From assembly GCA_028622995.1 (NCBI GenBank), contig JAJQJQ010000034.1:2046001-2110000 (forward strand): 64,000 nucleotides of DNA, in the 5' to 3' direction. The notes below the pieces were generated by a model. The model did not search any database. It worked only from the letters and a program-made list of their open reading frames with translations, and was not told the DNA's origin. This stretch comes from Panagrolaimus kolymaensis. Its lineage: Eukaryota > Nematoda > Chromadorea > Rhabditida > Panagrolaimidae. The translations under genes were made by a program, and so were the position numbers. Of this stretch, positions 34,001-41,100 are shown one piece after another (the stretch's first letter is position 1; the number at the start of each line of letters is the position of its first letter).

Positions 34001-35015
34001 AAACTTCGACAAAATAAAACTGTAGAATCGATACATTCTCTCATGCAATTTCGAAGGGACATAGCTCCTAAAGTAACATCCAAACCGCCTATTTCTGCGT
34101 TTTTAGTTACATAAAAATCTACTCGCTGTCCGGGGAGGCATCGATTAAGCTCTGTAAAAAATGTAAGTGGAAATTAATTTAGATATAAAAATATTTACCT
34201 TGAACGCAAGTATTTTCATAGTAATCGATTCCAGAAAATTCAATTAAACCTCCAACAACGGCTCTGCAAGTTTTATCGAGGACTTGGCAAGTACTGAAAA
34301 ATTTAAGAAAATTTTTTACCGTTTTAAAATTTTATTAGGCAAATTTAATTTACCCATTATGTTGATTAAAATTAACTGAATGACAATTAGGATTTGATAA
34401 ACAAAAATTTAAACATCGTTTTCGATCATCAACAACTATGGATTCAATGGGGGAAATAAGAAGTAAATGATCTTTTTGAAGTTCAAATGAAAAGGCGCCA
34501 TTTGTGCAATGCGATGGAATGGCTAAACATTGCTTTTCAAAATACGTGGATTTACTTTCCATGCTCGTCAAAGTATGCAATGGAATTTCATCAGCTGATT
34601 CATCATAAAATTCACAACGCTTTTCTAAATCTATTCCAATTATACTAAATCCATGGCAATCAAATAATTGATTTTCAAGGCTATCATAATTTGATCGGCA
34701 TGTTTCTGCGCAAGAAGTCAAGGACTCCATTCTACGAATAAATAAACCAGGACCCTCTTTTCGTATTTTCATAATTCGAATAAAAGTTGGAAATTCATGT
34801 TGGGTTTCGCATTGTTGAATCTCAGCAGGCTTGCTGCTTAAATTTGGCTGTTGCTGATTTCGATCAAAAATATTTTCATTTTCAAAATTTCCAAAAGCTT
34901 CTTCTACAAACAAACAATAACAAAAAATCTAACCCCAAAAATCTGGCTTACCTGCATTGCAAATAATACCCATCAACAACAAATATACAGTAATTATAAA
35001 CCTTTTTAGTCTCAT
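28009..35015 (-). CDS. Five-PAN, ZP-domain transmembrane matrix protein (NOAH/NompA-like), gene E
   Basis: Thirteen exons: 34952-35015, 34354-34903, 34199-34293, 33804-34151, 33495-33755, 33106-33441, 32386-33050, 29232-29360, 28869-29166, 28586-28821, 28328-28526, 28120-28240 and 28009-28072, joining to 1,121 aa. There is a signal peptide, then five PAN/apple-like modules (about residues 40-550, each with a C-x3-C helix such as CAETC, CMREC or CKELC). A Thr/Asn/Ser-rich linker runs to about 750. The ZP module (about 755-1,000) includes HYTGAIYAAERFSQC and IDIACNVVICRKSC. A furin site RHRR (about 1,003-1,006), one membrane helix (YLLIVLGLFLLSVIALALSL, about 1,067-1,089) and a short tail follow. 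This is the architecture of nematode NOAH-1/NOAH-2 and fly NompA, which link epidermis or sensory endings to cuticle. Which NOAH it matches is undecided. A 3,025-bp intron interrupts the ZP-N domain. Confidence 0.88.
29690..30200 (+). mobile_element. Dispersed repeat with tRNA-like internal promoter, copy 1
   Basis: This stretch aligns by eye with 31435-31990. Shared blocks include TTTTGACTAAAACTTTTTTTCCA, GAATTTGATTTTCCTT, a TTTTGCAAC block and a TTTAACTATRAAATGRARGGGAATATTAT block. At 29918-29975 it has a degenerate pol III A-box (TTTGCTCAGTGGTGGAA) and B-box (AAGTTCGAAACAT). That suggests a tRNA-derived SINE-like element, now diverged. Boundaries are approximate. Confidence 0.55.
30240..31175 (+). 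repeat. Degenerate ~22-bp tandem array (GGATC/GTGGATTTT type), array 1
   Basis: Dozens of imperfect units resembling GTGGATTTTTATGGATCTTTGG run head to tail. Many carry GGATC or CGATC cores. Units are interrupted and variable in length, so the array is old or evolves by slippage. It has no coding potential. Confidence 0.75.
31188..31208. repeat. GC-rich GNA-loop hairpin at end of array 1
   Basis: AAGGGGCGC, loop GAA, GCGCCCCTT gives a perfect 9-bp stem. The core GCGAAGC is a sequence known to form an exceptionally stable DNA mini-hairpin. The surroundings are A+T-rich. Confidence 0.75.
31435..31990 (+). mobile_element. Dispersed repeat with tRNA-like internal promoter, copy 2
   Basis: Diverged second copy of the element at 29690-30200, in the same orientation. 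It carries a better pol III promoter: A-box TTTGGCGCAATGGTGAAGG near 31688 and B-box AGTTCGAATCCGA near 31739. The T-arm and acceptor stem do not pair, so it is not a functional tRNA gene. Boundaries are approximate. Confidence 0.55.
32010..32210 (+). repeat. Degenerate ~22-bp tandem array, array 2
   Basis: A shorter run of the same GTGGAT/GGATCTTT units as array 1, again directly downstream of a tRNA-like element copy and again ended by a GC-rich hairpin. Confidence 0.7.
32264..32286. repeat. GC-rich GNA-loop hairpin at end of array 2
   Basis: GGTCCGGCAC, loop GCA, GTGCCGGGCC forms a 10-bp stem with one G-T pair. It has the same design as the hairpin at 31188-31208 (three-base GNA loop, GC stem) but a different sequence. 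Both are followed within about 10 nt by ATTCT-TTA. Confidence 0.72.
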
Positions 35016-35909
35016 TTTAAACACATAATCAAAAAAATAAAACATAAAATAATTCATTTTTTCATTTTTTTAAATTTGTTGCATTTTTCTTCTAAAAGTT
35101 GAAAAGGCTCTCTTTTTTAATAATAATGTTTGTCTTACTAATACTATTTTCCAGGATATAAAGAAAAGTCAAATAGACACTTTCCACCACTTTTGTTCCC
35201 CTCTCTTTATTTCGTTAGTAATAAGCGTTCTTCAATGCTAACGGCATTTATAAAGATTATAATAAAAAAAAAAGAGAGATAGAAACCGTTACAAAAATAA
35301 AATAGCGTCGTTTAGAAAAAAACATAAGTGGCTGATGAAGTATTCTCTCTTTCTTTATCCTCTAATAATTCATCATCATCATTTTTTTCCTTTCTTATAA
35401 ATATAAAGTACTTGAAACGAGAATGAATCAATGCAAATTTTGTTTTATTTGTTACAAAACTAGTTTGAGTCTTTCATTTTTTTATTTGATCATTTTTGGA
35501 ATCTTAATGGATTAAACTGGAGAACACTAAACTGTTATGTTCGAATCTATTGTTTTTCCAAATAATGCTTTTTTTGATTTCTTGGATTCGGCTAAAAACT
35601 AAGTTTTTTCATGCCATTTTTACAAAATATCATTAGTCAAATATTTTTTTAAAGTTACAAAATTTATTTCAATTTTTTTTTATAAATACAAAAACATATT
35701 TAATTAAAATAAAAGTAAATAAATTCCTGAGGAGTATCTATCATCCATCCATTAATATTGTTTTTTCTATAGTTAAACAATAATAATAAATTAAGCTGCT
35801 AATTGTTTGAGAAGCTTGTGGCTAAATTTAAAAAAGTTTTTAATGGAATATAAAAAAATAAGGATAAAGAAAACATAAAAGAAATTAATTTAAAAAAGGC
35901 GACTAAATA
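35016..35909. other. Region between PAN-ZP gene E and the nuclear receptor gene
   Basis: 894 bp holding the gene E promoter (right of 35015) and the 3' end of the nuclear receptor gene. It is A+T-rich, with no gene. Short CATCAT and CTCTCT runs lie near 35345-35385. Confidence 0.65.
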
Positions 35910-36449
35910 TTAAATTCGAACTAAATCGTTATAAAATGCAAAATCATAATTTGGAGTATCTGAAGTAACTCCCCATTCGCTATTATTTGTATTTGGTTGT
36001 TGTCGATCATATTCATCTGAATTGCTGCTGTAATTTGTCCAAGACATTTGGGGATTAACATTGTTATCATTATTTGTTGAAACAGATGAAGCATCAAAAT
36101 TGTCCATTTTTGCAATTTTTGGCATAATAAAATTATTATTTACTTGCGAATCATCATAGGTATTCCAAACGTTCTGTTGACTATGAAAATCATTTGACTC
36201 CATATTTGTGAGCGAAGAAGAATCATAAAAATTAATCATATTTTTCGTTTTTGGTAATACACTTTGATTTAACGCAGATGATGGGATTCGTGCATTGGTA
36301 CCATGAATGGCCAAGCCGTTACCATCTTTTTGTTGTTTTCGATAGGCTTCTGAAGCTTTATTTTGTTGGGCATCATTGCGCCTATCGAAATTACCAGGCA
36401 GCCGGCTTCTTGCTGGATCTTGACGCTTCAAGCCGGCTGCAGCCAATAG
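35910..36449 (-). CDS. Candidate readthrough extension of the nuclear hormone receptor (179 codons)
   Basis: Directly after the receptor TGA (36450-36452) the same frame stays open for 179 codons to a TAA at 35910-35912. The translation begins LLAAAGLKRQDPARSRLPG. It continues basic and Q/N-rich, becomes N/S/D-rich (NNNFIMPK, STNNDNNVNP), and ends NYDFAFYNDLVRI. It looks like real disordered protein sequence, not random A+T-rich translation, and has no better start of its own (no ATG near its beginning). Translation would need readthrough of TGA or an undetected splice. The two splice routes I could find fail (see rejected items). Confidence 0.6.
   Translation of the reverse strand, partial: LLAAAGLKRQDPARSRLPGNFDRRNDAQQNKASEAYRKQQKDGNGLAIHGTNARIPSSALNQSVLPKTKNMINFYDSSSLTNMESNDFHSQQNVWNTYDDSQVNNNFIMPKIAKMDNFDASSVSTNNDNNVNPQMSWTNYSSNSDEYDRQQPNTNNSEWGVTSDTPNYDFAFYNDLVRI
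36398..36440 (-). promoter_or_regulatory. Perfect 11-bp RNA stem-loop 9 nt downstream of the receptor TGA
   Basis: On the coding strand, GCAGCCGGCTT (36440-36430) and AAGCCGGCTGC (36408-36398) are exact reverse complements separated by a 21-nt loop. The stem has 8 G-C and 3 A-U pairs and starts 9 nt after the TGA. Position and stability fit known readthrough-stimulating hairpins. Alternative pairings exist because GGCTGCAGCC and AGCCGGCT are themselves palindromes. Confidence 0.7.
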
Positions 36450-38143
36450 TCAACTAGGCCCAAATGCTCCCTCGATAACTTGGCCCCTAAAAAGTATTTT
36501 TTTGAAATAAGGATGTTTAAATTAAATTTTTTTTGACATACTTGTCGACTTGAGTAAAGGCTGGACGTCGTGTAGTTTCAGCAACATGTTGACGTTCTTC
36601 TTGGAAAATATCACCAAATAATTCAAAGAAGAGTGGATCGACACGACGCATATTAGAGTTGAAAGTATGATCAACTTTAATATGTTCTGCTAAGTCGCGG
36701 GCCAAAAGCTACAAAAATATTTGATAAATTTGGATAGTTTTTAAAAAATTAGCTTACAGAAATTTTTGGAAGTAAATGTAAAAGTTTTGCAAATCGAAGA
36801 GGAGTACTTGCATCGCCGTTTTTATCTTTTTGACATTGCTCATAAAGGGCTGTATGAACTTGATCACGAAGTGAAGCAACAATATTTTTTCCATCAGATG
36901 ATAAGCCTCGGGCTTCTTCATTTAAAACAATGATAGCTTTGAGAAGCATGTATTCATATTCGCTTAAACTTAATTCGTGAACATTTGGAACAAGGGTGTC
37001 AATGATATTTGCAATCAATAAATGATTGACAAAGCTATTGAAAAAATTCTATTATTAGAATGGAAAATAAATTTTAGGGATAAAAATATTTTATGCCCCC
37101 TTTAAACTCCACTAACCTATTTGTTTTAACATCTTGGTTTTTGGAGACGGTTATTCCAGTTGGAAAACAAAGAAGTGATGATTCACGTGTAGCATTTACC
37201 GTTCCATAAACGATATCAAAAATAGTCAACGATCCATAACAGCTTCGTAAAAGGGCAATTTGGTCGGAAGTTGTAATAATAAATTGATTATCAAGAAGCA
37301 AACTAAGAGCGCGAATGTAATCCGAAGCATAGGTTAGAGTTCGAAATTTGCAAAAATCCATTTCTTCTTTTGTGACATTGTGCAACCGAACGCAATACAT
37401 AATTCGGGTTCGATAGGCATTCATGCATTCAGGAAAATCAAAAACTTCATGAAGACTATTAACTCCTGAAGTTTGATTGTTTTCATTGAAATCGGCTTCT
37501 TCTTGAGCTTTAGCTTCAACATCGCACATTTTTGCAACAAATTGAACTCCAGCACTATTTGCCTTTTTATGGGAAGGTTGATGTTGATGATGTTGGGGTT
37601 GTTCATTATCCAATGGCATTTCAGGTGAATTTTCAGCTGTGTGAGGATGCTTTTTAGGTTGGGATGGTTTTTCATCTTTGCTCATACGAACGGATTCAGG
37701 TTGCATTCCAGCTCGAAGGCAACGTTGGAAGCGACAAAATCGACATGCATTTCGAGCATTAACGGTAATGTTGCAATTTCGTTCATATCGGCAAACATAT
37801 TGGGCTTGTTGTTTGACTGATCGCCAAAAGAAGCATTTACATCCATGGCATGCAGCTACACCATAATAATAATGGGAGCATGCTCGATCGCCACAAACGA
37901 CGCACTAAATAAATTATTTTTAGATTTAAAAAAATCGAAATTTAAGCTTACATTAACCAATCCCATTGAAGGAGGTGATGCGGCTGAAGTTTCAGAAAAA
38001 TCATTTCTTGAACTTTGTGTACGTCGTACAGAATTATTATTACTACGAGATTTTCGTCCAATCGCTACGAAAGCGTCGGCGTTTGAAGGTTCGTCGGTTA
38101 ATGAAGAACGTTGATTGCTTGATGGGCTTGCACCGGATGCCAT
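36450..38143 (-). CDS. Nuclear hormone receptor, up to TGA stop
   Basis: Exons: 37952-38143, 37117-37904, 36758-37034, 36542-36708 and 36450-36486, giving 486 aa to TGA. A Ser/Asn-rich A/B region is followed by a C4-type DNA-binding domain from residue 65. Its first finger, CVVCGDRACSHYYYGVAACHGC, leads into CFFWRSV. Its second finger has CRYERNC, then CRFCRFQRC. A hinge rich in H/Q/P/K (about 135-185) and a helical ligand-binding region (about 195-450, ending in DPLFFELFGDIFQEE, which resembles an AF-2 helix) follow. The P-box helix CHGCKCFFWRS departs from the usual CxGCKGFFRR. Nematodes have hundreds of such receptors and I cannot name the orthologue. The last 12 codons to TGA (...GQVIEGAFGPS) lie in a separate exon that continues in frame past the stop. 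Confidence 0.88.
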
Positions 38144-41100
38144 TTTTATAGGTTATTATTTTAGTATTGGAGGGAAACTCCAAAACTTTTTGTTGATGAA
38201 AATATAGTTTTATTTCGCTTGTATCCAGCGCGATTCGAAGTTAACTTTATGTGGACACTTTAAAATAAAAATGACCACAAATAAAATCTTTCAATTATTC
38301 AAAAGTTTCGATAAAAATAACTAAAAAAAGAATTAATTAAATTTAAGTATTTATAATTATTTTATTGAATCGAGTATGATCAAAGAATTCTGTAAAAAGA
38401 CGCGGCACACAAAAATAGCAAAAAAGGAAGATGGGAAAAAGTGTTGCTGTTAGAAAACTGAGCTAACAAAAGATAACAATGTAACAAAAAAAAGCGGTCT
38501 CTGGCATTATTTAAAGGAAGACGAGAATGGTTGGTTTTTTAGCTTTTTTACGTCATTGCTCCTTGGCTTCTCTTACCTCAAAGTTAGTCAGTCACTCGGC
38601 TGCTTGCTTGGTTTTTGCACTTGCTAATGCTGCAAGTTTTTTTGATAAAATTTTTTTGGGCTTTTTGCAACCTAGACAAGTTTTAAAGATTGCTACAATG
38701 CTAGTCGTCTCAAATTTTGATACTCAATTAATAAAATTTGGAGGATAAAAAAGTGACGACAGAGAGTAAAAATTTAAAAAAAAAAGTTCAAAGATTAGGC
38801 ATAAAATTAAGCATAAAAAAGTATGAAAAAAAAGTTTACTTAAAAAAATGTAGGTTTGTGATAAAAATTTAGACGAGGTCGGTCCATTTACCGCTACATT
38901 AATATCAAATGTCAAAACTAATTATTAAAACAAAATGTTAAAAAAAATATAGGTGTAAAAAAGCAGACGATGATAAACTCTTGTGTTAATTGAAACAAAA
39001 AAATGATTGAAAACTTATTCGAATAATAACAAAATACTCTGTGAAAAAGATTAAAAAATTGTCAACAACTTCTTGTTAAAGAAAATATTATTTTTATTTT
39101 TTACAATTACATTAAAGCAAACATCAAAAAAATGCGCAACGTTAAAGCGTTCAAAATCAATATCAATAACTATTTTAGAGTAGTGGCAATAACAATCATG
39201 TGATTGGTACTGAGAGAACACACGTCTAAAAGAAGCTGGGGCAGCAAACTTTGGGTTTTATTATTTAACGATTAACGATGTTATTTTATTATTATAAAGA
39301 ATGAAGGAAAGTTCAAGAATGAAGGATGGAAAAAACTGCGGTGGTAATAATTAGAGTAAACAAAAAGGTTAAGAGTAAAAAAATTCTATCAACCACACAC
39401 TTTTTTTTCTCTTCATTTTTTTGTGATCGGAAATCATTTTTCATTTTTAATTATTGGAGTCGATGGTGAACGACCGAAACAAAAAATAAATGTCATAGGA
39501 GAGTGAGACAGTTCAAAAGCACAATCTCGGGCGATTTATTTTTAAATTTTTTTTTATGTATAAAATATTATTTTTTGTGTTTACTTTTTTTTAAATCCAA
39601 AACGAGGAGCCACTCCGACTGCTGCGAGTCCAACAAAAAAGTAGAGGAAATATTAAATTGCTGGTATTTTTGTTTTAGACTAACAAGGCGTCGGAAGAGA
39701 AAAAAATTTCTTATCATAACTTTGATTAAAAAACTTAAAACCCAGAAATGTATCTTTGATGCATAAAAATAACATTCCATCATGTGACAGGAAATAGAAA
39801 GTAAAAAAAAGGAACGCGTCGTTGGCAAAGTCTTCGAAATAAAACAAAGAATTTATAAATAATATTGCGTCAAAAAAATAGAATAAAATATATGGTAGAA
39901 TATAAAAATGAGATAAAGAAGATTATCGACATTTTATATGTATTTATAAGTATCTGTTTTTAATAAATAAGCCTTTAAACTATTTACTTAGGAATAGCAT
40001 CTTAGAAGTTATTTTTATAAAAATATTATGACAGAAAATGGAATTTATTGAGGCCTCTGAGATTTTTTGGATATTGAAACAATACAATTTTTTTTCGAAA
40101 GAGTAATGATAAAAGACAAAAATTTTTTTTTGCTCGAGATTAAACGAAATCCAGAATGGATGAAAGCTAAAATGAAAATTGCATTCACTTTTTTTTCCAA
40201 CACAAATCGCGACTGTGGCTTCAACACGATTTTTGCCTTGAACAATAAAAAAATGGTTATATGACACAACGACGCCTGTATGTGTAAATCGTAAACGCTC
40301 ACTTTTCATAGTCAAAAAAATATTGAAATGGAAATGGAAAAAACGATTTTCTATTTATTTTGATTTGAAGAAATTGCAATATTACCACATTTTACAATAA
40401 AACTAACTAACTAACTGTCCATTAAAATGGATACACAAAAAAACCGAAAAATTGGAAGAAATGAAATGCGCGAAAAGAACTAAAATCAAACATTTTTTTT
40501 GTTGAAAAGAGAGATGGGAAATAAAAAAAACATAAACCTAGAAAAAATAAAACGTGAACGTGCAATGACACTCATCAACGCTAAATAAATTTTAACACAA
40601 ATGAAAATGTTATCTATCTAAAAAATGAAGAGAAATAAAAAAAACTCTAGGCGTTTCCTGCTGCTCATTCATCATTTCATCGTTTAGAGACGCATATACC
40701 CAATAAATATATATGGTGTGTTATAACCCATAGTTAGAGTTCTACGATCGTGCGCACAGGGAAAAAAATAAAAGGAAATAAATGTATTTATAAAATGATC
40801 AATCACAGAAAATAGTGGCAAGGTATCGGTTAGTTTATTTAAAAAATGTGTCTGGTGATAATTAAATAAAAGAAGAAAAAAAGAAGTTGGAAATGTTATG
40901 TAAAAAATCAAAATAGATAGGCTCGTCAAAATTAGTTTAATTTATTATTAAAACAAACAAAAAAAAAAGACGAGACAAGGAAACGCTAAAAAATTTTAAC
41001 TTTTGATCAATGAATCATGAAACACCCGGAAAACATGGTTAAAACCCAAGACATTTTATTTTCAACTTCAAAAAATTTAGTGGTTTTTACTTTCGATAAT

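Follow-up and report, generated by a model that had tools for sequence, protein, structure and literature searches.

The last exon of a nuclear receptor gene in Panagrolaimus kolymaensis reads GAFGPS TGA CTA TTG and then continues in the same frame through 179 sense codons to a TAA, which raises the question of whether the worm makes this receptor in one form or in two. The gene and all features below belong to the minus strand of a 64,000-bp stretch of DNA that was analysed as a whole and is called the window here. The initial annotation had described the TGA CTA TTG and the in-frame extension of 179 codons and had placed them at 35910–36452. We confirmed this reading on the minus strand, and the coordinates are exact with the TGA included: the stop occupies 36450..36452, the extension 35913..36449, and the TAA that would end a long form 35910..35912.

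We first describe the receptor itself. The gene has five coding exons, and the spliced short form comprises 486 residues. Exon 1 (37952..38143) runs from the ATG and is defined by its open frame, a GT donor and conservation in the four genomic copies described below. Exon 2 (37117..37904), delimited by its splice sites, encodes a C4 zinc-finger DNA-binding domain (Pfam zf-C4, 2.5e-21), the hinge and the start of the ligand-binding domain, which occupies exon 3 (36758..37034) and ends in exon 4 (36542..36708). Exons 3 and 4 were placed by the four-copy comparison, and the spliced protein matches Pfam Hormone_recep at 1.1e-18. Exon 5 up to the stop (36453..36486), which follows the acceptor TTTTTAG, contributes GQVIEGAFGPS, with which the short form ends, and aligns with the C-termini of relatives from other species.

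In a comparison with PDB, the top match of the short form was HNF4-alpha (2.2e-30), carried mainly by the DNA-binding domain. When the query was restricted to hinge and ligand-binding domain, ultraspiracle matched at 1.1e-8 and RXR and HNF4-alpha at 1.6e-8, which is nearly equal, and HNF4-alpha was the first structural match of the predicted structure of one relative (P0001). With its two predicted domains, for DNA binding (C4 zinc finger) and for ligand binding (hormone receptor), the protein is a nuclear receptor of the HNF4/RXR type; we use this double name because the ligand-binding domain matches ultraspiracle, RXR and HNF4-alpha about equally, which does not settle HNF4 versus RXR. Upstream of the stop, codons 36604..36633 encode LFFELFGDIF (residues 445–454), a likely AF-2 motif. 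A match to PPAR-gamma stops at query residue 454, the last residue of that PPAR-gamma chain; therefore LFFELFGDIF is probably the AF-2 helix (helix 12), and the short form would be a complete receptor. In the predicted structure of P0001, the AF-2 candidate falls within the last helix (429–449, moderate confidence).

How improbable is the open frame behind the stop? The initial annotation had assumed about 75% A+T and about 9% stop codons and had arrived at a chance of 1e-7 for an open run of this length. These values need correction: the window contains about 70% A+T, stops make up 5–8% per codon, and the recomputed chance lies between 1.6e-6 (intergenic rate) and 1.4e-5 (window rate). The earlier estimate was too low, yet what was concluded from it holds. 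When the bases of the tail itself were shuffled 20000 times, the frame was interrupted in every case. Across all six frames, the window has 22 stretches between stops that span 179 codons or more, a raw count that includes the receptor tail and in which exons are not set apart. With so many runs of this length, the length of the tail alone would not be decisive; the decisive point is that the tail is conserved in all four copies and also beyond this species.

We searched the genome (265.8 Mb, 807 contigs) with the last exon and obtained four matches, on contigs C33 (the window), C362, C75 and C37, the last two with 90% identity across 641 bases. Searching with the tail as a protein returned the same four copies and no further one. 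TGA CTA TTG, both arms of the hairpin described below and the open tail down to the same TAA are present in all four. Within the tail, every gap is a multiple of three (18, 9 and 3 between C33 and C75; net gaps of 15 and 9 between C33 and C37), while outside it the gaps measure 1 and 3 in the introns and 18, 4 and 1 in the 100 bases past the TAA. Identity to C33 amounts to 95–96% in the tail, 94–99% in exons 1–4, 89–92% in the 37 bases that end with the TGA and 71–93% in the introns (71–73% in intron 4, 92–93% in intron 2), and it falls to 84–87% beyond the TAA. The copy on C362 (C362:7800-12000), a contig of 27 kb, has zero coding differences from the window copy and is perhaps an unmerged haplotype.

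Coding constraint behind the TGA, a check proposed in the initial annotation, is borne out by the frame, open in all four copies, and by the conservation of the tail protein, but only weakly by dN/dS. For the tail, this ratio is 0.37 in the comparison with C75 (p 0.06) and 0.47 with C37 (p 0.10; both p values by random substitution placement), for the receptor 0.11 and 0.10. Read in the two wrong frames, the tail gives 0.71 and 0.98 (C75) and 1.28 and 0.44 (C37), the value of 0.44 (frame 2) being as low as that of the true frame. Five nonsynonymous changes and one synonymous change separate the tails of C75 and C37. As evidence for a coding tail, the substitution test between copies is therefore weak.

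This weak signal would suit a decaying tail, that is, an ancestral constitutive C-terminus that the TGA severed and that has since been drifting as 3′UTR, and so would the Steinernema and Ditylenchus models with a continuous longer C-terminus. Yet a stop was created in the tail in 73–76% of 5000 runs in which the observed substitutions were placed at random, whereas the copies contain no stop and only gaps of multiples of three. Moreover, the TGA is common to all four copies, and the proteins of relatives, for example Panagrellus P0005, terminate there as well, so that we regard the chance of such a decay as close to negligible. A separate observation concerns C75 and C37, for which dS is 0.16 in the receptor, like any pair, versus 0.009 in the tail (region 35801–36550); this difference suggests that the near-identical tails arose by gene conversion or recombination close to the last intron.

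The second line of evidence comes from other species. With a query consisting of receptor plus tail (residues 200–666), we collected 13 database relatives. Four of them (P0002–P0005, among them Panagrellus P0005) terminate in the stop's own column, three with YDPS, YDPS and YDQS opposite AFGPS/AYGPS here, and another two (P0007, P0008) have ends within about five residues of it. Six run past the stop column, all as protein models alone: P0001 and P0006 from Panagrolaimus, P0011 from Ditylenchus, P0009 and P0010 from Steinernema and P0013 from the distant Toxocara. P0012 is garbled in the alignment. When bacterial and archaeal genomes were scanned with P0003, nine pattern matches came up, and none of them was confirmed.

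P0001, a gene model of Panagrolaimus sp. ES5, matches the tail in 52 of 142 columns (pairwise E 1e-18). Used alone as a protein query, the tail yielded 71 candidates, none at E ≤ 1e-3. We then built a tail profile with pieces of P0001, P0006 and P0011, and its sole hit among 1401 candidates was P0014 (E 2.7e-28 in 5.8 billion), a tail-only ORF of 144 amino acids with six member sequences from a JGI source. P0014 and the P0001 tail are identical at 88 of 133 positions. Smith-Waterman scores of our tail against P0001 and P0014 are 181 and 170, whereas the highest scores among 1000 shuffles for each were 74 and 72. The conserved core, DGNGLAIHGTNAR at tail residues 42–54, follows the pattern DGNG(L/I)...GT(N/D)AR. 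A conserved coding frame past the stop, one of the criteria for readthrough, is thus indicated by the homologues P0001 and P0014 and by the gaps in multiples of three. Orthologues lacking such a frame, which according to the initial annotation would speak against its proposal, are countered by the tail conservation in Panagrolaimus and in the JGI relative. A Pfam search of the tail detected no domain. FYNDLV near the C-terminus of the tail resembles an AF-2 motif but is absent from both P0001 and P0014, for which reason we did not retain it as a second motif of this kind.

That P0014 was predicted as an ORF of its own and that nematodes possess operons would both fit a separate cistron for the tail, whose translation would depend on reinitiation or on a downstream mRNA formed by trans-splicing. 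The tail, however, lies in frame directly behind the stop in all four copies, and the first Met is residue 71 of our tail and residue 99 of P0014. Since the first Met stands beyond the conserved core, we consider a separate cistron very improbable. The first residue of P0014 aligns with tail residue 2, from which we infer an ORF caller that began after an in-frame stop.

A long form could also arise by alternative splicing, if the donor of the last intron were joined to an acceptor beyond the TGA. The P0001 model would agree with this, as it connects receptor and tail without a stop and leaves out the residues that would align with the 5′ arm of the hairpin; this join may reflect either a detour of the predictor or a real intron. 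In addition, an acceptor, TTTCGATAG (exon from 36381), is in phase with the donor at 36541 and identical in all four copies. We therefore scored 50 frame-keeping pairs that skip the TGA, with donors from exon 4 on and acceptors up to 220 nt from the TGA, by splice matrices trained on the same 12 introns (from three copies) that were used as comparison. The best pair sums to 2.7 (donor 9.1, acceptor −6.5), whereas the 12 real introns reach about 20–30, their acceptors scoring 9.6 to 18.9. The remaining 49 pairs sum lower, with 1.1 for the best other acceptor among those listed, which is paired with donors of −4.3 to −6.6. Splicing to 36381 would furthermore delete ARSRLPG-FD, which is present in P0014, and any such intron leaves the CTA and the hairpin unexplained. 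Alternative splicing as the source of the long form is accordingly unlikely in our view.

What would then allow ribosomes to pass the stop? Type II readthrough sites consist of UGA followed by CUA or CGG, mostly with a stem-loop, and 3′ readthrough structures typically start about 8 nt past the stop, as described in PMC3542737. At our locus, UGA is followed by CUA in all four copies, and the element CTATTGGCT (36441..36449), which comprises the CTA context and a 9-nt spacer, is identical among them. Behind it, the RNA is predicted to form a GC-rich, perfect 11-bp stem starting 9 nt downstream of the TGA, in which GCAGCCGGCTT (5′ arm, 36430..36440) pairs with AAGCCGGCTGC (3′ arm, 36398..36408). 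Both arms were found by stem scan and folding and are identical in all four copies; since they are invariant, the hairpin shows no covariation. It is absent from the initial annotation, which had called TGA CTA the best-established readthrough context in animals and had named the human vitamin D receptor (VDR) as one example. The likeness to VDR holds for these two triplets, but the base after CUA is U here and G in the vertebrate motif, UGA CUAG (PMC5868278).

The hairpin folds at −24.6 kcal/mol with a z value that varies with the stretch folded: −2.5 for the hairpin (3 of 200 shuffles equally stable), −4.1 for a segment of 101 nt (0 of 200 as stable) and only −1.66, or −1.7, for 100 nt counted from the TGA (14 of 200 as stable). 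A scan of the 64 kb for perfect stems with 11-nt arms, a GC content of 60% or more and loops of 3–40 returned this hairpin alone; run without the GC condition, the same scan gave 10 stems in the window. Predicted structures accompany 9–10% of mosquito and fly readthrough candidates versus less than 1% of other transcripts (PMC5100048).

A stable hairpin nearby, and a wider fold in which the TGA itself is paired, might also hint at another kind of recoding, namely selenocysteine insertion or A-to-I editing of UGA to UGG. Against the former, no SECIS element occurred among the Rfam matches at E ≤ 1 in 35000–38500; against the latter, an A with a 5′ G is a poor ADAR context. We give such recoding hardly any weight.

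Taken together, the frame shared by four copies, the conservation of the tail protein, the lack of a good TGA-skipping intron and the hairpin support the readthrough interpretation of the initial annotation. On this sequence evidence, programmed stop-codon readthrough is, with good though not complete confidence, the way in which the receptor tail is made, and the worm probably produces the receptor in two forms, with the stop sometimes read through. Most ribosomes would halt at the UGA and release the 486-residue receptor, which is complete up to and including the probable AF-2 helix. Some would decode the UGA as sense, aided by the CUA and by the 11-bp stem 9 nt downstream, and would append a probably disordered tail of 179 residues. 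In the predicted structure of P0001, residues 448–599 have a pLDDT below 50, and the model therefore says only "disordered or unknown" for its tail.

Among the closest known systems is the readthrough form of human VDR, VDRx, which also combines a nuclear receptor, a UGA CUA context and a largely disordered C-terminal extension after the ligand-binding domain (PMC5868278). VDRx adds 67 amino acids via UGA_CUAG, compared with 179 amino acids, UGA CUA U and a hairpin in the nematode. Strong selection on the VDRx extension beyond Old World monkeys was argued against (PMC5868278), whereas the nematode tail is conserved with Panagrolaimus ES5. VDR readthrough was measured, at 6.7% in reporters (PMC5868278); in the nematode receptor we infer readthrough, its rate and the function of the tail from the DNA. 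VDRx responds more weakly to ligand than VDR (PMC5868278). The type II viral sites resemble our locus in UGA, CUA and a stem near 8 nt downstream, but they extend replicase or coat proteins (PMC3542737), whereas here a chromosomal nematode gene would yield a receptor.

For the function of the tail, HNF4-alpha offers an analogy. Its C-terminal F domain represses transactivation and is changed by alternative splicing (PMC10438950), whereas the nematode tail would come by readthrough. The position of the tail past the predicted last helix fits the placement of an F domain, a region past AF-2; it is by position that the two are likened. By analogy to HNF4 and VDRx, the tail would most likely dampen or redirect coactivator binding, and the long form is likely weaker as a receptor or wired differently. 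As for its age, we lean somewhat towards an old readthrough switch, common to tylenchine nematodes, in which CUA and a stem-loop add an F-domain-like tail to an HNF4/RXR-type receptor.

Few nematode readthrough genes are known. The five C. elegans candidates include C18B2.6, with a predicted stem-loop after the stop, and resemble our gene in that readthrough was inferred from conserved post-stop coding (PMC5100048 and PMC3609751). The terms "nuclear receptor" and "hormone receptor" are absent from the main texts of PMC5100048 and PMC3840789. Among the best literature matches listed, which test absence weakly, none dealt with readthrough in Meloidogyne or in any nuclear receptor of a nematode. 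The only nuclear receptor we found for which readthrough was measured is human VDR, whose extension is young. If the switch is indeed old, this nematode gene would, to the extent of these searches, be the first case of a nuclear receptor whose readthrough control is deeply conserved, a switch possibly tuned by development or stress. A long conserved extension together with both known stimulators would make it a clean system for testing readthrough regulation of a transcription factor.

Such an extension would also be a warning that automatic gene models may truncate readthrough tails or splice around them. In the Ditylenchus destructor model P0011, the receptor is fused to an astacin peptidase, probably a gene-prediction error. 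The Steinernema hermaphroditum models P0009 and P0010 have a continuous longer C-terminus with SSFGPLNA near the position of GAFGPS-stop-LLAA, and judging from these sequences the tail may be constitutive in that species.
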